A stretch of 51,692 nt of DNA from Chromera velia (taxonomy: Eukaryota > Sar > Chromeraceae). The notes under the pieces are model-generated. The model made no database searches. It was not told the origin of the DNA and saw only the letters and a list, made by a program, of their open reading frames with translations. The DNA lies in NCBI GenBank assembly GCA_018398765.1, contig JAHBMJ010000014.1, positions 1 through 51,692 on the forward strand, written 5' to 3'. Positions 431 through 39,339 of the stretch are shown one piece after another. How positions within the stretch are numbered: the first letter of the stretch is position 1; every line of letters begins with the position of its first letter. A program made the position numbers and the translations under genes.

Positions 431-3400
431 GAGAACTGAGTGCCAATCGAGAGGCAGACACGGACCGCCTGACCTACAGAGAGAGAGACAAGGAAAGGGG
501 AACCGGGGCACGGTCTAGCCGGTCGAAGATGAGAAGCACATGAATGAATGAGAAGGGACAAACAATCGAGAAGAAACAACAGCACATGAGCCGAGAGCCC
601 CCTCGAAGGCGGCGGCCGGCAGCAATCAGACAGACGGAATTAATGACTGACTGACTGACTGTGTGGCGACGGAGGCCAGGGGAGGGAGGCTGCCGTCTTC
701 CCCCGGGCTGTCGGCACACGAGGCTGCACCGCTCTCTCCGTTTGCGCATGTCAAGCTGATTGATGGTGGGAGATCATCAAAAATCTGCATGCAGGACGAC
801 GGGCAAGATCGAAAATCAAGATCCTCATGTGGTTGGTGTGGTGAGACAAAACTGCTTCAACTGCGCGATTCACACGGCTGGCTCACCTTCTTTATGGCAT
901 GGGCCATCAATTAAATAAATACAAACAGGAAACAGACAGAGAGGCGGAGAGACAGAAAGATAGGCGGACGGACAAACGCATTCCCAGACACACCCAAGGA
1001 CGGAGAACGCGCTAGCTTCTAAATTGGACGATTGGACGGACGAATTTTCTGCAGACAACGGACCTCAACGGCTTGCGTTCCTGTCGCCCCGTTCCCTGCC
1101 GGGTCTTTTGCCACGAGGAGGAGCGTGGAGGCCTCAATCGCCCCTCTGCAGTCAGGGCACCGAAGTGCAGTGGCCTCGTCGCCCACTGCAGGACAAGGGA
1201 GCGCCTCCGTTGAAGAGACAGAGACGTTCACTTCCCCCCTCCCCTCGTCCACGTCGAAGCAAGGGTCATTGTCGGTCGCTGAGATCCCAACGAGAGTCTC
1301 CAGAGGGGAAGAGAGAAGCTCAGAAGCGTTGACCTGCAGGATCGAGCGCACACATGCACCCGTGAAAAGAGGAGAGGAGAGAAACGTCAAACCTCACGCA
1401 TACACTCTGCCATCTCCACTTCTTATCTTGCCGATTGGACGGCCGTTTTCTGAAGGCCAGGAAGTTCAAATGATTTTCAAGCAAGGGGAGCATCCTGCTG
1501 AACTCCCTTGCGACAGACCAAGCGACGGAAAAAAGAGACCAGAAATTGCAGTAGGGGAGAGGAAGAGAGAGAGGGAGACACAAAGAAAAGCAGCGGACTT
1601 GGATCAACAGAAAGAGAAAGGGAAGCACGCAGCAAACACACACTGTGCAGGAAAGAAAGGAAAAGAAACGCAGGAGTCAGAGAGAGAGAGAGAGAGAGAG
1701 AGAAAGCGGACCCTGAGAGGACCCGGGTCTGTCCCCGTGAAGGTTGGAGGGTTGACGTCCGTCACGACTAGCTGCTGTGTGAAGATGAAGTCGTTCAGCG
1801 CGTACGTCCGGATAGCCACAAAAAGGATCGTCTCGTCTGCATGCAGGAAAGGAACAAGAGGGAGGGAGGGAGGGAGAACACGTATACGTCATGTTATTTC
1901 AATGTGTCGAAACTTGCATTTTTTACGAAGACAGAAAATAATACAAAGGAGACCATCACGTGTTTTGGGAGGGAAAGTGTCATTGAAGGACGGAAGACGA
2001 GAGTATCTTCTTCTGGCACACACGTTTATGCTGCATTCGTCGATTCGTCTCGATCATACGTTGAGACACTGCGCATGGAGAGCCTGTAGGAATCTGTCCG
2101 GGCTATTTCTTTTCTTATCTGCTTTGTTTGATCGGCGGATCTCTGCCTGCATTCCCCCCACGCAATTAATTCAACAAAAGGGCGGCCGTACACCAGTACT
2201 GACTCACCCACTCACTCTGGTCGCATGGAGGAAGGTCGATCTCCAAGGTCGGGTCCACCACAACCTCCCCCCCCGTCTCGTTGGTCAGGATCACCCGCAG
2301 AGGGGGGGGCAGGGTGTATTCTGCTCAGGGCAGGCAGGCAGGCAGGCAGGCAGGAGGGTAAAAGGGGTTAGAAGGATCGGGCGGAAAATACGTATGGCTG
2401 CTGCACCTCAAGTGAGCAATGGAAAGCAGCAGCAACGAGAAAGAAGAGGGGCAGCACAAACTGCCCGAAACATGCAGGCAGAAAAAATGCAGGCATGAAG
2501 GAAGACAGGGCAGCCCCTCTTGGACGCCTGAAGGTGCCTCCCGTTCGGCGTCAACCGACTACCGGAGAGAGAACATAAAATCAGGGAGAGAAAGCAGACG
2601 GATCGAGGCAGAACTGCACATTCTTTTTCTCCGGAATGTCCCCCCCCTCACTTTCTTCCTTCCTTCCCTACCCCCTTAATTGTCTGTCTGTCTTTCTGTC
2701 TGACCTGTTCCGTTGACGTCCACGACCTCCCCGTTCGGGTCCGTCAGGTTGGAGTCGATGGGCACAGTCAGCACAGTCCCGTTCTGCTTGTGTTTGTTTC
2801 GAGCAGGCACGCAGGCAGGCCGGCAGGCAGCCGATGATGGATGATGGAAGTGATACACGAAAAGTTGGGAAGCAGAAGAAAGGAAAGAAAGCAATGACGA
2901 GAGGATGAGGACCCGGTCTGCATTCTTTGTCTGTTGCTTGCCTCGATTGTGCCTGTTGGATCCCTACGAGTGTTTCCATGTGAGGCAGTATGTCTGTGTC
3001 TCTGTATGTGTGTGTGAGAGAGAGAGAGAGAAACAGAGAGAAGACGAAGGAAGGAAGACGGACCGGCACAGGCATTCCCCCCACGTCGACAGAGAAAAGG
3101 ACCGACACGACCTGCACGAACGGCTCGGCCTGGTTCCCCGCGGCGTCTGCCGCAGTGTAGGTGAACGTGTAGTTGACTGCCAGGGAGAATTGCGCATCGT
3201 CCCCGGGAAAGGAGAAGAACTCGGGGGAGCTCGGCATGGACACCGAAGTCGTTGCCTGCACCTCCCGCGTACCTCCATCGACGCATCCCGTCAGGGGGGT
3301 GTCGCAGAAACAGAACACGTCGTTGTCCGTGGCAGTCAGAACAGGGGGCTCGGGGGGGTCCGGGGTGAACGGGAGGAATCTGCAGGCGGGAGGGAAGGAA

Positions 3401-6400
3401 GGAAGGAAGCAGCCATCAGAATGAGACAAAAAACGAGGGGAAAGGGGGGGAAGGGGAGACATCGGCATGACACAAAATGATGCAGCAGTTTGAGACACCG
3501 ACACACATAGAGTGAACGCAAAAACTGCCGCGGTGTGGAAGAATGAAGGGCGGGCGAGGAGACGAAGAACAGTCGACGTACTGACACACATCTGCGTAGG
3601 CTGATCTCCTGAGAGGATCACAGGAGCGATGTCGTCGAGTACCGTGACCTGCTGGGAGCCCTGAAGAAGATTGCCTGCGAGATCGGAGACCTCGAGGGAG
3701 CGCTGTGCGGTGAAGAGGACCCCCGGCTGGCTGGCATCGTCACACTCCCTTATGAGGAGAGTGCCCGGGGTAGACTCGACTTCGAGGACGCAGCCGCTGA
3801 GGTCCTCAACGAAGGGGAGCTGCTGGAGGGGACTGGAGGACACGGGGACTCCTGCATGCATGCATTGCGTGATGATAGACGGAAGGGGGGAAGGAAGTAT
3901 GCGCAGACAGACAGACGGACAGAGGCAGACGACAAAGCAAGAAAAACACTGATCGATGGAGGCGGTGAAGAGAGGAAAGAAGCAAGCGAGACTTGCGAGG
4001 AACCGGATCATGCGAATTGAATCACTGTCCCTTTGTCGGTGGTGGCACTCTTACTGAGTCCTCTTTTACACTTTCCCTTCCTCTTGTTCATTGACATTTC
4101 ATCGTGATCTGTTACGCCTCCATGGGATACTCAGAGATCGCGATGCGCGCACATGCAAGTCAGTTGGGGACTTCCTTCACTCGCGCATGTACGCACATGA
4201 AAACCTTCCCCCTCCGGGTCGCGCGCACTCACCCGCGTTTGTGAAGAGCCCGTCGGAAGCGTTGACTTGAATCTCCCCCTCAAAGTCAACGAACTCGGGG
4301 GGGTCCTCGTCTTTCACGTTGGTGGTCTCTGTGTAGGTCACTGTGTTGTTACCCGGGTCTGTGACTGAGACCGTGCGGACGAGGGAGGCGATGATCTGTC
4401 CGGGCGCGGGGGCGTTCTCAGGGAGGCATTCGAGAGGAAAGTCCTCGGTGGTGTCGGAAATGTCGACGGAGGGGTCGAAGCACTGGTGCCCGTCGGTAGC
4501 GGTGGCCTCTGGGGCCGGGATGGCCCGGGTCTCTGCGGGCAGGTAGAGTGCGATGTCGACCTCGGTCTCCTCCTCTGCACCGTCTGCAACTTCGATGCCC
4601 CCGATGGACAACTGGGGGGGGACGTCGTCTGCCACCACCAACACTACCTTGACAGTCGCCGTATTTCCCGCAAGGTCGCTGGTGCTGTAGGTGTAGGTCA
4701 GGCGGACCGTCTCCTCGGTGGCGTTGGTGCAGTCAGGGTCTGAGACAGTGAAGTCTTCGAGGGCCAGCGGCTGGCTGGCGATGTCCTCGAAGCATTCAGA
4801 GGTGAAGGGGCTCTCGTCGTCTATAGGAAATACTGCGTCGGGGTCGAATCCCGCCTGCTCCTGGATGAGCCGTGGAATTTGATTAGCTGGGGAGTTGCCG
4901 ACTGAAACGGCGGTGAGAGGGATGGTGTTAATAATACCAAGAGAACTAAACGGGACTCTGATGACTCTCTCGTCTCCCTCCTCCTCGAAGGGGGGGATGC
5001 CCGTGAAATCTGGGGGTGTGGTGTCTGTGATAAAGAAGTTCTGGGACACAGTTCCGGTGTTGCCTGCGGGATCCGTGGCGGTCCATTGACGCACGAATAC
5101 CGCCACAAAGTCAACACATTCCGTGAGGGTGGTCATATCGTTGTCCCCGTTTGTCTGCAGTCTGCGTCGTCTCCTTCGCCTGTTCATCTCCTGTCCAACC
5201 CCGCTAAAGATGAATCGATCGGAATTGTTCTGTTGCAGGAGGAACTCTTCTGCAGAGAGAATCGCAGCGTTCTCTACCAGAAGAATTGAGGATTGGTTGA
5301 AGCAGGGGAAGTTATCCACGGCGATGGGGGGGCGATCTGGGAGGGGCTGGCTGCTCGTCCCCAAATCGAAGTCAAACTCACCGCTTGAGAGAATAGCATC
5401 TCCAGGAGGAAAGATAAAAGAGGGGGGCGCGGTGTCCACCGGGTTTGTGTTCTCTGCCGCTTCCGGGTCTCTGCAGTTGAACCGCCCACACGCGGGAGGA
5501 CCGCACTGAAACTCAGGCCGCGTGCACGTGGACGGGCAGCAGTCACCTGCACGCACGCAGACCATGCATGCAGAAAGAACACTCTGGGATCGCACAAGCA
5601 GCAGCCAAACAAGCAGTCAGTCCGATGAGAGACTGACCGATCGACCTACTCACTCAAGCAATCAAAAATGGCTATCAAGCGAAGCGAGTGCTGCAGAAGA
5701 TGACCTGGCCTTTTCACGATACTCTTCAAACCACCCCAGAAGAACAGGAGAGCACGGCAGAGTTAACAGAGTTCAATGCAGCAAAAGGGACATCAGTTGG
5801 ACAGGAAGAGCCAAAGACCCACCCCCATCCCAATCGCAGGGCAGTTCAGGGTAGTTGAGGTCATCGTCGCAGATGCCGTTGCCGATTCGGGGATTCGGTG
5901 CCCCCCCTGCGGTCGCGTTGAGGGGGCAACTCTCGTTGGCTCTGGTCATATCGTTGGAGGCCGTCAGGTTCGTGTACGGGGAGGGCGTCACAATCGCCCC
6001 GCACTCTGTGCCCAGACTCGTCGTCGTCAGCAGCACGGCCTGAAGGAAGGGGAGAGGAGAGGGGGAGGGGGGGGGGAGGCAGAAACATGCACACCCAGAC
6101 TCAGAATCAGAGGGGAGCGATGCAAGGGGCGTACAACCATTTCTTTGAAGGAAGGAAAACTCACAGATCTCATCAGAAGGCAGCGAGAAAAAGAGACTCA
6201 AAGCGACACACGATGTATTCCAATCAAGTGTCCCCACGCTTCATCCGCAAAGCAGAAATCCGCCCAGGTGGGTTGAGACGAACCAATGAAAAATAAATAG
6301 GCCTCTGAAAAGAAATGAGAAATCAATCTGCCTTCCGGTTCTTCGAATTCGCTCCTTACGGTACGGCCTTGATTCGAGTAAATGTGAGACAATATCACAG

Positions 6401-7305
6401 AGACAAGTCATACGATCCCACGCGAACACATCACATAGATACAATAGAGAAGGCGAACGAACAAACGAACGAACACACCTGAGGGTCCTTGCAGACCATC
6501 TGCACAGGGTTGCACGCGAAGTTCACGATTGTGCTCGACTCAGTCTCCTCCGAGACGTTCAGGAACCCTGCAAGCAAGAATCAAGAAGCAGGCAGAAAGG
6601 CAGGCAGATGCATGCAACCGTCGGGAAAGGAAAGGGAGACTCATGTAGGAATGAATGCAAAGGGGCCTCTCGCCCCCCCCAGAGATGAGCACTGGACAGG
6701 CGAGAATCCCGTCTCCGCTAAAGGAAAGAAAGTGCAAGTTGGAGGAACGTTCAGACGAATAGGTCCAAATCTCTCAATACGCATCCACCCTTCAGTGCAT
6801 CTCTCAGAAACATCCAGTCTTCTCCGAGCTGGAAGCCATCCTGCCAGCCGTGCATGCCAGTGTCTAGTGTCTGACCTGCCACGAAGGTACTGTTCACGTC
6901 CTCCTCCATCATCAAGAGGTCCAAGAGCTCTGCCTCAAGGGAGAGGATCTCCTCCTCGGTTTCCGTCAACACCGGAATCTGCAGACGGAAAGACAGACAG
7001 ACAGATAGACAGACAGGCAGGCACGAGGGCCTTGCAGGCATGTCCAGGCATAAGTCTAGCTGGACTGAGCGCGGTAACCAGAGCAGCACGGAGACGAACG
7101 TAGAGAAAGCCCAGCGGAAAAAGCCCGTTTACTGCCCCCAAAGAAGGAAAAAAAGCCCCCCACCGACCGTGCAAGTCTGCGCACAGCAGTCTCCTCCGTC
7201 ATACTGGCACCTGCACTTAGAGGAACACAGACGGAGAAAGAGAAAGAAAAAGAAACTCAACAATCTACTGATCACTTGCCATCGCCCGAGATCGTTCCGT
7301 CCTCG

Positions 7306-7343
<38 letters not shown>

Positions 7344-10300
7344 CTTCTCTTGTACATAAACGTCTATCGATACCTTCCCACTCCTGTCACTCAGGCATTT
7401 CCATCAGACACCTGAACGTCCTCCACCGAGGATCTCAATTGATCAAACGCCCACCATTCAACCAAGTAGCCGACCGACCAACCAACCAAAAGGTGTTGAG
7501 CACCCCGTCCTCACACAGGCCGTTGCCCAGAGACCGTCCACGTGCCTCCTCTGCCGTCCCCCCTGCTGCCACGTCTACTGCGCCCGCAGCAACGAGCAGC
7601 TGATCGCAAACCTGCTCCCTCTCCGCCTCAGATGCCGACAGGACACTCCCCCGAGTGCCCTCAGGGTCCCACAGAGCAGCTCCCTCTGCCTCCCAGTCGA
7701 CAGGGACCGTCTCGGGGATGCACTCGGAGAGGCTCACCGCACCAGATAGGGCTGTCGTCTGCAGGAGACGAGGAAGAGGAGAGCATCAATCAAGAAATAA
7801 GGCAGCCTCAATCAGACGGAGATGGATGAAGACTCGCAGAACTGCATGCAGTGTGACTCGATCGGCATCCAATTTCAAGGAGGGAGCGCTCCGTCCTCTC
7901 TTCACGAAGTAAGTGCGCTTTCTCATCGATGCGTGCTGAATTCTTCGAGCGTGCCTATGGACAGTCTCCCTACTCGCAGAAGAGGTCTTGGAGGCACAAA
8001 GAAGAAGCTGGACGAAAAAAGAGATTCATTGATCCGCAACAAAGTCCCTCCCTCCCGCATGACAGAGAAAGCAGTGGAGAGACCAACCAACCGACCAGGC
8101 CGGCAGGGCACCTGATACAGCACCTCTGACCCTCCTCTTCTTGGTAGTATCTGCACAAAGTTCTCCCACACACAACGACTCCCACAGACTTACATACTAT
8201 TTCTCTCACACAAGCGGAAACACACGCACTCACACACAATCACAGACACCGCAGGAACAGACAACTCACTCAAAGGACAATCACGGAGTGAAGAAGAGAT
8301 TGACACCAAAGAGATTGCGGGACGTGAATGAGCAAGCACGCAAGAAGATGTTCAGAGGCTCTCGGTAGAAGGACAGTGTCAGATAGTGGCTGTTGAAAAA
8401 TGCCCGTTAACTTTCGGCTGATTTACAAATCTGCTGACTCACCCCACACCACAGACTGTGCAGTAGTGCTCCCCTACGCTCGGGTTGGCAGTTCCTGGGG
8501 GACACGGGGTGCACTCCGCGCTGGCCTCCTGGCTGGCGAAGGTGCCTGCATGCGTGCGTGCAAATATGAGATTATGGAGTCTTCGCATCTGAAGCTGCGG
8601 TTTCGCTGGCGAGACAATGATGTGAGTCCGGAACAATTCTGATCGCGCAGAATGCATACAGAATTCTTGGATCAGCGTTTTTGCGACCCCGCCTCCCACC
8701 TGTCACCGACTGTGAGGAAAGGCCTCCCAGGCACGCGCGCGCACACACACATACATACATACATACATACATACAGAGAGAGAGAGAGAGAGGAATGTCA
8801 GGAGAGGTCGCATTTATGGCGAATTGACGCACGCACCTTCAGGACAGAACTGGCAGGTGTCAGGGTCAACCCCAAACGGACGAGCTGTCCCGATTGGGCA
8901 GGGCGTGCACCCGGCAAGCCCCGCAGCTGCATGCACATGCACTCACGGCAACGCACAAAAAAGGGCGGTGGGGGAATCATTCAAGTTGTGCCCATGAGGG
9001 AGACACCCCTCGTGAGGCACAAGAAGTGCCAGCGAGAGAACCGTGGAGTCCCAAAACGAACGTCACAGAACAGCAGAGGAGCAGAGAAATGCTCACGAAA
9101 ACCTCTCTGGTCAACGTATTGACCGATCAGGACGCACAAATTTCAAAACGCCTCCCGCGCTCCTCTTTCCAACCCCGCGAGTTTACCCTCACTGCCCATC
9201 CCTGTGGCTTTCAACCGTCAGCAAAAGCGCATGTGCACCTTTCTATTTGCACAAAAGAAAGAACCGGCGCGATCGATGAGAGATTGACAAAGAGACCGCA
9301 CGCACGCACGCACCCACGCACCTGCCTCAAGGGTTTCGAATCCAGCCTCACAGGGAAAGCAGAAACCGGACCCGGTCGAATTCGCAAAAGACGACAGGGG
9401 GCAGAGCTCACACTCCACGTTGCCCTCCCCTGACGCGAACTGTCCCTCGGGGCACTCCTCGCACCCATTCCCCTCCGTGTCCGAGAACAGGCCCTCGGCA
9501 CACAACGAGCACGACGCGCTGCCCTCCGAGTCTGTCCCTGAACCCTCCGGACAGGGCACGCAGGCGGTCTGGTTGCCGCTCCTGAAGTAGTTCAACTGGC
9601 AGGGGATGCACTCCCTCGCAATAGAGTCAGCCCCCTCACTGCCGGTTGTCGACAGGGGGGCCCTCTCGAAGCCGTCGAGGCATTGGCAGGCCCACTCGAC
9701 CTGCAGGCAGGCAGGCAGGCAGGCAGGCAGCAGCATGGGCAGGGAGGGAATCGGTGGATCCAAGGAAGGAAGGAAGGAAGTGAGGAAGGAAGGTGAAAAA
9801 GGAATCGATGCTACATGAAGACCTGATTGGGAAGATCAGAGACGCTAGGGAAGGAATTACGGGGTGCAGATAATACTCGGCCCATCATTCAATTTAGGTA
9901 AGGGGCTGTTCATTCAGACAGGCAGAGAGGCTCCCAGACATACGGAAGACAACAAGAATGGGCACGTCTGCGTACTTGTCCCCCAAAAAACTCAGCGACT
10001 CAGCGGACGTCCCAATCAATAGAGAGAGGGCCAAAAAAAAAAAAAAGAAAGAAAGAAAGAAAGAAAGAACGAAAGAAAGAAAGAGCATTTGCCTTGTCAT
10101 TCTTTCTTCTACTCACTTTGATGGCCAGAAGGGGTTCTTCGAGAGACACGCTCATCCCATCCGTCCTCACTGCACTCCACAGCCCCTCATAGTCCACAGT
10201 GCAGTTCGAGTTCACACCCTCCTGCCGGGATCCCGCACACGTCGTGAACGCCCGCACCTCCTCAGTTACGTCCACGTTCGCATCAATTCCAAACCCCTCA

Positions 10301-36760: not shown

Positions 36761-38062
36761 TCACGGTCGGAGTTGATCAATCGATTCGTGTAAAACATAC
36801 TTGCCTACAAATCTGTTGCCCTTTCGAAGATTTTCCTCCGACCACATTGGTTGCAGGTTCGAGAAATGCAACCTTGCAATTTGGGTCTCCGGATTCGGTT
36901 TCTTTCCGTCCGGTCCCGGGAACTTTATGGGTGTGATATGATCGACGTGCCAGTGAGTCCCATAGTTCTCCCACGACATCCCGGGGTTGTTATGAAAGTT
37001 GTTCATCTCCAGGTGCGCCTTCAGCTGCTCAAAGGAACAGCCAATATACTGAACTGTACGTTTTTGATAAGCACTGAGAGAAGGATTCTTTATGACGGAT
37101 AGCTTCTCCCGAATCGAAGAGAGGTGTTTCCAGACGGTCCTTCGAGCTCCGTGAGTCAATCGAAATACTATGTCTTCTTGGTAGCGCAACCTTCTCTGGG
37201 TATTGTAACGCTGCCTTTTCTCTTGAAATGCAGGATTCTCTTTCTGACAGACTGCGCAGTGACCGCGCTGGCGACCATGCTCGCAGATTCCACTCCCTCC
37301 GCAGTCCCTACACTGACTGCGCCTGCGTCTGTGTTCACAAAAATTCTTCCCGCCGCACTCTCTGCAATCACCGTGCCTGCGACCATGCTCACACAGTCCT
37401 TTCCCGCCGCACTCTTTACAATACCTTCGCTGACGGCCGTGTTCGCAAATGCTTTTCCCACCGCACTCTCTGCAAAAACTTCGCTGACGTCCATGCACGC
37501 AAATTCCTTTCCCTCCACAGTCCTTGCACTGGTTACGTTGACGACCGTGTTCACAGATATACTTCCCACCACACTCTCTGCACTGATTGAGGTGGCGCCC
37601 ATGCTCACACAGTCCTTTTCCACCGCACTCGATGCAATACCTTCGCTGGCGGCCGTGTTCGCACATACTCGTCCCACCACACTCCCTACAAAAATTGCGC
37701 TGGCGTCCATGCACGCAAATGCTTTTTCCACCACAGTCCTTGCATTGGTGGCGCTGGCGGCCGTGTTCGCAGATATTTCTACCCCCACATTCCTTGCACA
37801 TGTGACGTTGGCGTCCATGCTCACATATTCCTTTGCCTCCGCAATCTTTGCAGTAGTACGCCTTCTTGCCGTGTATGCAAACGGCCTTTGGTTTTACTGC
37901 AGTTGTCGGAAAGACAGGGGCCGGTCCAGAATTCTGTGCTACATTCCTGCTTTCACCTGCTTCTTTTGCTTTAAATTTCTCCGGATTGTATCCCGGTGTC
38001 AGACACACAGAAGCCACAGGGGAGAACGCACGGCTCTGGAAGGCGGTATGGAGAGCTAACAT
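36761..38062 (-). CDS. Intronless CxHG zinc-repeat protein with HNH endonuclease-like C terminus
   Basis: A single exon of 433 residues from the ATG at 38060-38062 to the stop at 36761-36763. The frame stays open upstream to at least 38425, and an ATG at 38392 is a possible longer start. The N terminus (MLALHTAFQSRAFSPVASVC) could be a targeting or signal sequence. Residues 62-277 are twelve 18-residue repeats of the form CEHGRQRxxCKECGGKxI, each with a C-x-H-x6-C-x2-C set suited to one zinc ion. Residues ~310-421 are an HNH-type nuclease domain: GCSFEQLKAHLE, WENYGTHWHVDHI with His-Val-Asp-His at 372-375, and NLQPMWSEENLRKGN at ~402-416. This architecture is found in algae and large algal viruses (general knowledge). 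Unlike most of its neighbours the gene lacks introns, which suggests transfer or retroposition. Expected role: metal-dependent DNA cleavage, with the repeats binding nucleic acid (inference). Confidence 0.8.
   Translation of the reverse strand: MLALHTAFQSRAFSPVASVCLTPGYNPEKFKAKEAGESRNVAQNSGPAPVFPTTAVKPKAVCIHGKKAYYCKDCGGKGICEHGRQRHMCKECGGRNICEHGRQRHQCKDCGGKSICVHGRQRNFCRECGGTSMCEHGRQRRYCIECGGKGLCEHGRHLNQCRECGGKYICEHGRQRNQCKDCGGKGICVHGRQRSFCRECGGKSICEHGRQRRYCKECGGKGLCEHGRRHGDCRECGGKNFCEHRRRRSQCRDCGGSGICEHGRQRGHCAVCQKENPAFQEKRQRYNTQRRLRYQEDIVFRLTHGARRTVWKHLSSIREKLSVIKNPSLSAYQKRTVQYIGCSFEQLKAHLEMNNFHNNPGMSWENYGTHWHVDHITPIKFPGPDGKKPNPETQIARLHFSNLQPMWSEENLRKGNRFVGKYVLHESIDQLRP
37232..37879 (-). repeat. 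Twelve 54-bp coding repeats (18-residue zinc units)
   Basis: Twelve in-frame units without spacers. Units 3-6 and 7-10 match as blocks in the same order: QCKDCGG unit, CVHG..FCREC unit, RRYC unit, then the GKGLCEHGR unit. This points to a recent duplication of a four-unit, 216-bp segment. Confidence 0.9.
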
Positions 38063-39339
38063 CCAGGCAGAGTGAGGAAAGTTGGCGGTACCCGGGTAAG
38101 TAAAAAGTCCCCGCAGCAGAGAGGCGCGTTTGCTTGACTGAGGGATTGAGACCTCGGGTGAAAGGGAACGAAGGGACGGATACCTGCCTACAACTCCGTT
38201 TCCCTTCCGAAGATTTTCATCCGACAACATCGGCTGCAGGTTCAAGAAGTGCAACCGCGTTATTTGAGTATCCGCCTTTAGCTTCTCTCCGTCTGGTCCC
38301 AGGAAGTTGATTGGTAACCCAATCACACTGAGACACCCTGTACGCCTACAGCTTCTGGTGCTGCGAAGCAGCGTTTGAAGCGCACTCTGCATCAGACCAC
38401 AGATGCGGGCAGCTGTACCAGGCAAATCCTTGCAGTCTCAGTCTGTCAATATCCTGTACAAAGCCGACTTCCTAATGCCGGCAAGGGTTCACGAGGATGC
38501 AAGGACACGTGAGTCAGCGCAGCTTTTTTCATTCTTGTGTGGGGTTTCAGAATGAAATCCAGGGCGGACCCTCTCCAGACTGAATGAGTTGTAACCACTA
38601 CAAATAGAGTCCCAGGTAACAGATCTGTGTAACTTGCATGATCTGTGTAGCTCCCAAGTATATCAGCCTTTGCATTTCAACTGAATGTTGCTGTGCAGGA
38701 CGCCTGCCACCGTTTCTTGTCAGAGTTTGTTGAATCGATACATGCAGGCTGTAGCATTTATATTCGTGTTGAATTGACTGCAACACATGCATGCAATGCA
38801 ACAATGCAACACATGCATGCAAACTTGGACTTTTATTGAGGCGTTGCTTCTCGCGTGGATCACTGCGTGCATGCATGGCTCGGTCACATGCACTGCAATT
38901 CCTTAAAGCATGCGGGGAAGCAGCTATATATAGGCGTGGCTCAGCCTTAGATTTGCAAGCGAGGGAGTCCGAACTCAGCCAAAGCTATCATACGCCAGTA
39001 GCTCGGCAACGCGCTCCTATATATGCCCTCTCGTTCAATCAAGGCTCGGCGATGATCGCGCAGTACGAGTTATGTTACACGGATTGCCAAAAGCGCTCTG
39101 CCACACAGCCTCGGCCCATCTTCCGAAAGCTCTAATGCTGAATCTACACGAAGCTTTCTCCATGCACCTACAACAAACACAACGTGTCGGCAACGTCGGT
39201 GGCCGACCTTTTGAGTTAGCTTGACTTTCTCCTGCATTGATCGCGACGGTCTGTCAGCTCTCCCGGCTGGTGTATCTGCGGAAGTAGTGGATTCTTCAAT
39301 CGACTTTGTAATCGTTGCTTTTGATAGAAGTGGTCTGAA
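38063..39339. promoter_or_regulatory. Head-to-head spacer between the HNH gene and the 190-residue gene
   Basis: The spacer holds the HNH remnant (38180-38320), a cluster of ATGCATGC-type motifs at 38787-38822 and again near 38870, and two TATATA-containing stretches (~38931-38938 and ~39019-39025). The latter lie about 400 and 320 bases before the plus-strand start. No coding sequence is convincing between 38430 and 39339. Confidence 0.45.
38180..38320 (-). pseudogene. Decayed duplicate of the HNH C-terminal half
   Basis: Translated in the same frame as the HNH gene, this stretch gives LPINFLGPDGEK, then QITRLHFLNLQPM, then DENLRKGNGVVGRY. It parallels TPIKFPGPDGKK, QIARLHFSNLQPM and EENLRKGNRFVGKY of the intact domain. 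The DNA also aligns: 38187-38310 against 36799-36930, including a shared GGTTGCAGGTTC-like core. The HVDH motif is missing because the similarity begins just after it, so it cannot be a working nuclease. It may be the tail of an older tandem copy, or part of a longer 5' end of the current gene. Confidence 0.65.

Follow-up and report, generated by a model that had tools for sequence, protein, structure and literature searches.

The window, as we call the whole 51,692-nucleotide stretch of Chromera velia DNA analysed here (GenBank assembly GCA_018398765.1, contig JAHBMJ010000014.1, positions 1 to 51,692), carries on its minus strand a gene that joins a tandem array of 18-residue cysteine-histidine units to an HNH nuclease domain. 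This gene belongs to a large family that has kept its catalytic-type residues under purifying selection and that has array-bearing relatives on viral contigs. A tempting reading, which we favour only tentatively, is that a virus-type nuclease was captured and then expanded into a set of mitochondrion-targeted, sequence-directed nucleases; the import, nucleic-acid binding, cleavage, target and direction of transfer that it entails are predictions from sequence.

Results

The gene of the window and its probable start

An earlier note on this DNA had described twelve 18-residue CxH-x6-CxxC units fused to an HNH domain with an intact HVDH motif, and we recovered all of these in a single minus-strand open frame (Table 1). 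With its stop at 36761, the frame stays open up to 38437; the coding of the array is uninterrupted, and the "one exon" of the note is read from the open frame. The twelve units are all in register at 18 residues each, and the frame contains 12 copies of the exact motif, whereas 1000 codon shuffles gave 0.008 copies on average and never more than 1. Judging from the Cys/His pattern, the units would bind zinc. The DNA of the array has a period of 54 nt together with higher-order periods of 108 and 216 nt, so that the array seems to have expanded partly as four-unit blocks. An NLQP...EENLRKGN part lies downstream of HVDH in the HNH region.

Table 1. Features of the array-HNH gene in the window
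Feature	Position	Strand	Basis
Coding sequence, most likely full, 543 aa	36761..38392	-	ATG 38392, stop 36761-36763; open frame; predicted start codon
Stretch described in the earlier note, 433 aa from the downstream ATG 38062	36761..38062	-	
N-terminal 25 residues, presequence-like: basic, without Asp/Glu	38318..38392	-	Composition of the N-terminus
Relic of a first HNH domain: its C-terminal part, without the HxDH part	38171..38314	-	DNA repeat and amino acid match
Twelve-unit array, 18 residues per unit, mostly CxHGRxRxxCxxCGGxxI	37232..37879	-	Motif, DNA periodicity
HNH (His-Me finger) region	36764..37231	-	PHROG matches, alignment, genome search
HVDH motif, catalytic-type	36938..36949	-	Frame translation, family conservation

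For the window protein Pfam returned only DUF7895 (E 0.017, under the model cut-off), and NCBIfam only matches far under the cut-offs. The Pfam HNH model, PF01844, is absent from the protein's Pfam matches up to E 1 and has no match across its own genome. Weak matches were obtained with phrog_28061 (E 4.3e-5) and with phrog_1035 (endonuclease VII; E 7.3e-4), both of which are also matched by the viral loci L157 and L162.

The gene probably starts upstream of the ATG chosen in the earlier note, at ATG 38392. The 3' part of the HNH region (36797-36932) recurs as a 136-nt direct repeat at 38180-38315, 79% identical and on the same strand, which places it past ATG 38392 in the open frame of the gene. 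Searching the genome with the HNH part also picks up this upstream repeat, with 65% amino acid identity over 48 residues (query residues 104-151). The N-terminus read from ATG 38392, MQSALQTLLRSTRSCRR, is basic, free of acidic residues and of the kind seen in the paralogues.

Similar traces occur in other copies. When the N-terminal region was compared with the HNH tail in single-module copies, 1, 0 and 6 of 500 shuffles did as well for L009, L011 and L018, and the match did not stand out in this way for L016 (500/500), L012 (173/500) and L027 (57/500). The first 125 residues of the window protein were likewise compared with these regions, with a less clear outcome: the shuffles as good, out of 500, numbered 7 for L009, 13 for L011 and 74 for L018, and also 25 for L027 (469 for L016, 424 for L012), and there was no useful alignment with L019 and L030, the other near relatives of the window. 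Support for placing the window together with L009, L011, L018 and L019 is weak in its turn (89/31 in the HNH tree). From these likenesses we infer that the ancestor of the window subgroup had two modules and that its first array and most of its first HNH domain were lost without breaking the frame; in the window copy one module looks intact and the other, the first, would survive as a relic.

A large family with mostly paired HNH matches

In the 177.8-Mb genome, alveolin-type matches at 11 places and matches to chlorophyll-binding proteins at 58 places indicate an alveolate alga; the alveolin model is not wholly specific, its control being positive in Caulobacter, and the control for the chlorophyll-binding proteins was positive in Synechococcus. 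Copy number, which the earlier note had proposed as a check, proved high. Searched with the HNH part, the genome yielded 126 matches, located on 70 contigs (129/129 candidates scored), of which 106 are near full length without internal stop and 14 hold an internal stop. These make up 72 clusters: 52 consist of two pieces, one of three and 19 of a single piece, the pairs taking in clusters, the window's included, whose second piece is a fragment only, and at least one, C2406, whose two pieces belong to one domain. In 34 neighbouring pairs the reported frame lengths are equal, which we take as the same open frame; such frames, with two modules each, run to about 560-2490 codons. None of the titles listed by literature searches names this family, which may be described elsewhere.

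Sixty loci (L008-L067, two of them overlapping) were fetched and yielded 102 distinct HNH domains, after HNH pieces of at most 105 model positions and two identical domains from the overlapping loci had been set aside. In the tree of these domains, many forks of which are open, the first, second and single modules cluster by label, with 20 label changes against a shuffled mean of 41.8 (0/200 shuffles as few), and the first and second modules are mutually nearest in L030, L034, L039, L042, L059, L062 and L067. On this pattern, duplication in most of the family seems to have taken in the entire two-module gene, followed here and there by copying or conversion inside single genes. The most diverged two-module member, L059 (contig C1800), sits on a long branch and has a presequence-like N-terminus; it may be the oldest form of the family.

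Constraint on the HNH domains and on the arrays

The HxDH residues are kept in nearly every domain (H98 and D100 in 101/102, H101 in 100/102), as are the distal Asn residues (N128 in 99/100, N137 in 97/98), and HxDH and the distal Asn residues are also invariant in an alignment with phage rows. The median dN/dS of the HNH domains is 0.19 (1334 non-independent pairs, dS 0.1 to 1.5), the highest value, 1.0, belonging to the second modules of L010 and L029. The arrays are constrained as well, with dN/dS of 0.04-0.40 in 11 pairs (13 of 14 chosen pairs were usable, and the ratio was not computable in two).

Within the unit, variability is greatest at positions 9, 6, 8 and 16 (3.76, 3.02, 2.99 and 2.80 bits; 464 units from 30 loci, in whole-frame translations, with stop-holding units dropped and some units counted twice through the overlapping L034 and L037). 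Even at position 9, the most variable of the array, pN is 0.48 of the array-wide pS. In 10 chosen pairs of close paralogues, identity at positions 6, 8 and 9 is 0.80 between homologous units (n=80) against 0.13 between non-homologous ones (n=803); part of the former value is owed to common descent, and the pN/pS figures of the arrays imply that selection adds to it in conserving the arrays unit by unit. The strings read at these three positions differ in 99 of 99 arrays, that is, in all of the 102 domains with a detectable array in the same peptide. Tandem units whose variable positions are held unit by unit are thus found here as in TALE and PPR proteins, and such register-specific variable positions lend indirect support to the idea that the arrays may bind nucleic acid in a sequence-specific manner.

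Presequence-like N-termini

Mitochondrial presequences are basic, amphipathic and poor in acidic residues, and import into complex plastids needs a signal peptide. In 44 genes the first 25 residues differ from the remaining pre-array region in mean net charge (3.45 vs 1.16), in acidic residues (0.64 vs 2.07) and in maximal hydrophobic moment (0.40 vs 0.29), with 0/5000 resamples as extreme for each. These 44 come from 58 first or single modules, 14 having failed a length or Met rule that was set after the listing had been viewed, and their N-termini begin at the first Met of the open frame, the predicted start. A common type of start is M[KR]RIAATLSRRASG. By eye, nothing resembling a plastid-type signal peptide was seen among the N-termini of the family. 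By composition, the N-termini are basic, amphipathic and acid-poor, as expected of a mitochondrial matrix protein, and look like mitochondrial presequences.

Flanks and mobility

The mobility that the earlier note had thought plausible was not supported by a comparison of about 1.5 kb of flank from the 30 best-scoring loci. Downstream, similarity was confined to 3 pairs, all among L009, L011 and L019 (27 usable flanks); upstream it was seen in 16 pairs (30 flanks), with N-terminal coding sequence included and some stretches of only 26-65 nt. No ends common to the family appeared in these 30 loci, and there are no recent near-identical copies among the 102 domains, the lowest pairwise HNH dS being 0.107 and the next 0.198. 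With so little common flank, diverged copies and purifying selection, a mobile element was rejected as the main reading; retroposition may have been a route of dispersal. Because the domains are diverged, under purifying selection and in possession of their catalytic residues, and the flanks have little in common, we see the family as probably made of old host genes and not of active mobile elements.

Two short stretches came to light in the flanks. Directly behind the stop codon, L009, L011 and L019 have 43 identical nt despite an HNH dS of 0.47-0.62; these might be either a 3' element under constraint or an overlooked extension of the coding sequence. A 19-nt stretch, GGTTTTTGTTATGCATGCC, is common to the otherwise unlike upstream flanks of L024, L028, L035 and L037, and might be either promoter-like or a genome-wide repeat.

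Viral, phage and bacterial relatives

Relatives of the HNH part were found in 80 phage records (tblastn, E 1e-5, with the whole protein as query), in 2 plasmids and in viral contigs, where at least 492 were confirmed and 80 kept. The CxH-x6-CxxC motif was absent from all 83 of the HNH-relative ORFs read (88 loci). Bacterial contigs searched with alignment A1 gave 7 loci, of which 6 were read and none had the array motif; a first search of the contig collection gave no confirmed match, and in the phage collection the array alone had no match at E 1e-5.

Searching viral contigs with the array itself gave 11 loci on 9 contigs. Two contigs from a single metagenome, those of L157/L158 and L162, combine the array with the HNH subtype of the window; by PHROG matches the array is joined to HNH types in L159 and L165 and to an endonuclease VII type in L164, so that 5 of 8 viral array loci (L157, L159, L162, L164 and L165) match PHROG nuclease families. 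In the other three (L160, L161 and L163) the array is followed by a domain that we take by eye to be endonuclease VII, for which PHROGs gave no endonuclease VII match. Two further loci, L155 and L156, coincide with an ORF of L002/L003: there, at 4977-5204, a 75-residue ORF of a viral contig consists of three such units and lies upstream of an 886-residue ORF, presumably a DNA polymerase. Among 175 viral, phage, plasmid and bacterial HNH loci (183 given), arrays occur in 4 loci from 2 contigs.

In an HNH-only tree of 86 rows, built from 16 of the 102 algal domains and 70 of 152 distinct viral or bacterial ones (the best-scoring, of at least 90 residues), the algal rows form one clade (support 100/96). 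Its sister, with moderate support (92/53), is the pair of viral rows that bear arrays. The contig of L157 has a match to the Pox_A32 packaging ATPase over the cut-off (E 1.8e-18) at two mirrored places, and the contig of L162 a weak one below the cut-off; the control was positive in 14/14 genomes at the loose limit, 2 of them over the cut-off, and hence only the strong match of the L157 contig counts. The algal genome has no match to this ATPase at E 0.001 (2/2 candidates scored). The L157/L158 contig (34,654 bases) is mirror-like, with the array-HNH gene and the ATPase each present twice in opposite orientation, and is either an inverted dimer or an assembly artefact. The link to viruses suggested in the earlier note is supported by two viral contigs with array and HNH subtype, one of them with a Pox_A32-type ATPase, and by their sister position in an HNH phylogeny, a check that the note had proposed. 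Capture from a small eukaryotic DNA virus would be the simplest reading, transfer in the opposite direction, from alga to virus, being also conceivable.

A probable second family with the same array

The array alone is found in at least 216 places in the genome (150 of 684 candidates scored). At L249 two divergent genes (1831-3882, minus; 5343-7478, plus) each encode a CBM20 domain, a linker and an array, with no HNH domain; of their CBM20 matches, one falls short of the cut-off (E 0.0018) and the other passes it (E 2.3e-7). L250 and L251 resemble L249 in DNA, and their contigs have CBM20 matches at corresponding places. By eye, opposite array pairs about 5 kb apart were seen on about a dozen contigs among the matches listed. 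CBM20 itself matches 59 places on 57 contigs, of which 35 are among the 103 contigs of the listed array matches, a correspondence at the level of contigs; of these 103, 39 have HNH, 35 CBM20 and 32 neither, with some overlap. Many of the array matches thus seem to belong to a second expanded family, which would combine the zinc array with a starch-binding domain, CBM20, often in divergent pairs.

Position 9 carries 2.59 bits in CBM20-type arrays (three loci, 71 units) against 3.87 bits in HNH arrays (841 units; lowest of 200 subsamples 3.43), the CBM20 sample being small and non-independent and all units coming from whole-frame translations without screening for stops. The occurrence of the array with CBM20 as well as with HNH indicates that the 18-residue unit is a general building block in this genome and, given this second family, the ligand of the arrays may not be nucleic acid.

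Discussion

If the reading that we favour is right, the ancestor would have been an array-HNH nuclease of the kind found in small eukaryotic DNA viruses, which gave rise to a large nuclear family. Its basic, amphipathic N-terminus would probably direct import into the mitochondrion, where every zinc unit of the chain would contribute its residues 6, 8 and 9 to the recognition of a particular nucleic-acid sequence, next to which the HNH domain would nick or cut; in two-module genes, two arrays would position two HNH domains. In PMC9550989, chromerid mitochondrial DNA is described as fragmented and duplicated, that of Chromera as encoding only two proteins, and the rRNA as fragmented in this lineage. 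The probable work of the family would be the processing, recombination or quality control of this shattered mitochondrial genome or of its transcripts. Against this stand the occurrence of the array with CBM20 domains in a family that lacks this HNH, the number of loci, about 70, which is many for a two-protein mitochondrial DNA, and the support of only 92/53 for the viral sister rows. In its full form, the proposal is of some seventy sequence-directed nuclease loci, many of them two-module, which would recognise a target encoded by residues 6, 8 and 9 of the 18-residue zinc unit, would have been captured from a small DNA virus and would manage the shattered mitochondrial DNA; this seems to us doubtful.

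Other readings draw on much of the same evidence. The genes might be selfish homing-type nucleases, each copy cutting a site set by its array and spreading into the break; this would fit an HNH type known from phages, plasmids and many viral contigs, the arrays on free-standing viral nuclease-type genes, the 72 dispersed clusters on 70 contigs and the uninterrupted frames, and is made unlikely by the little flank that 30 loci have in common, by diverged copies with purifying selection on both HNH and arrays, and by presequence-like N-termini. The CBM20-array family in the same genome, with 35 of the 57 CBM20 contigs among the 103 listed array contigs, brings in another possibility, that the array is a scaffold binding protein or polysaccharide and the HNH domain a general nuclease or structural part. 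Position 9 is less varied in the CBM20 arrays, so that the two sets may differ in use; the viral arrays precede nuclease-type domains (5/8 by PHROG matches, 3/8 by eye), the units are basic, and the constraint on variable positions is register-specific, all of which count against a scaffold and leave us giving it a low probability.

That a captured virus nuclease was diversified for defence against giant or polinton-like viruses of the alga would be in line with the viral sister sequences and with the many distinct arrays. We find it quite improbable, as the N-termini are of mitochondrial type and the variable positions are under purifying, not diversifying, selection (pN at most 0.48 of the array-wide pS). 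A sequence search of the PDB with the window protein returned only mL89, which we take to be a trypanosome mitoribosomal protein, at a non-significant E of 0.39-0.41, and a profile search returned two unrelated chains only, mL89 being gone. That weak match of the HNH part, together with the fragmented rRNA of the lineage (PMC9550989), would suit structural proteins of the mitoribosome type that arose from an HNH nuclease and hold the rRNA pieces. Nearly all domains read have kept HxDH, with which a purely structural protein could dispense, and this last reading is in our opinion very improbable.

Among known systems, the nearest in architecture are the proteins of viral contigs IMGVR_UViG_3300037485_001433 (L157/L158) and _001253 (L162/L166), in which seven CxH-x6-CxxC units precede the HNH subtype of the window and the RLHxxNxQ...NxxKGNxFxG tail of its family. 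They are 43% and 42% identical to the window protein, respectively, and differ in having a single module and a short CxxC stretch where the algal family has its presequence-like N-terminus. HNH nucleases of the phrog_1035/phrog_28061 type have W-x-N-x-G, W-H-x-D-H, P, N-L-x-P, N and K invariant with the family (17 rows), whereas the phage and bacterial enzymes are, unlike the window family, without the CxH-x6-CxxC motif (83 ORFs). The CBM20-array proteins of the same genome are like the window family in their 18-residue unit, large number and long open frames, and unlike it in their N-terminal starch-binding domain, their lack of HNH and their divergent gene pairs. If a virus nuclease was indeed captured and expanded by its host, the family would document such a case. 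Should the arrays read sequence, 99 naturally different arrays would form a data set for a new compact repeat code and offer a handle on how myzozoan algae process, recombine and maintain broken mitochondrial genomes.

TALE and PPR/OPR proteins are expanded nuclear families with short tandem repeats and variable positions, PPR proteins being targeted to organelles. RAP proteins, organelle RNA-binding families expanded in alveolates, are comparable too: according to PMC8190603, the RAP and HPR proteins of apicomplexans combine an expanded nuclear family with organelle targeting, like the family of the window. The latter differs from TALE, PPR, OPR and RAP proteins in its 18-residue CxH-CxxC unit and in carrying HNH in place of RAP, DYW or SMR, any base code of the CxH-CxxC unit being hypothetical. 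If our reading holds true, the array-HNH proteins would be a further kind of repeat-coded reader alongside TALE and PPR proteins.
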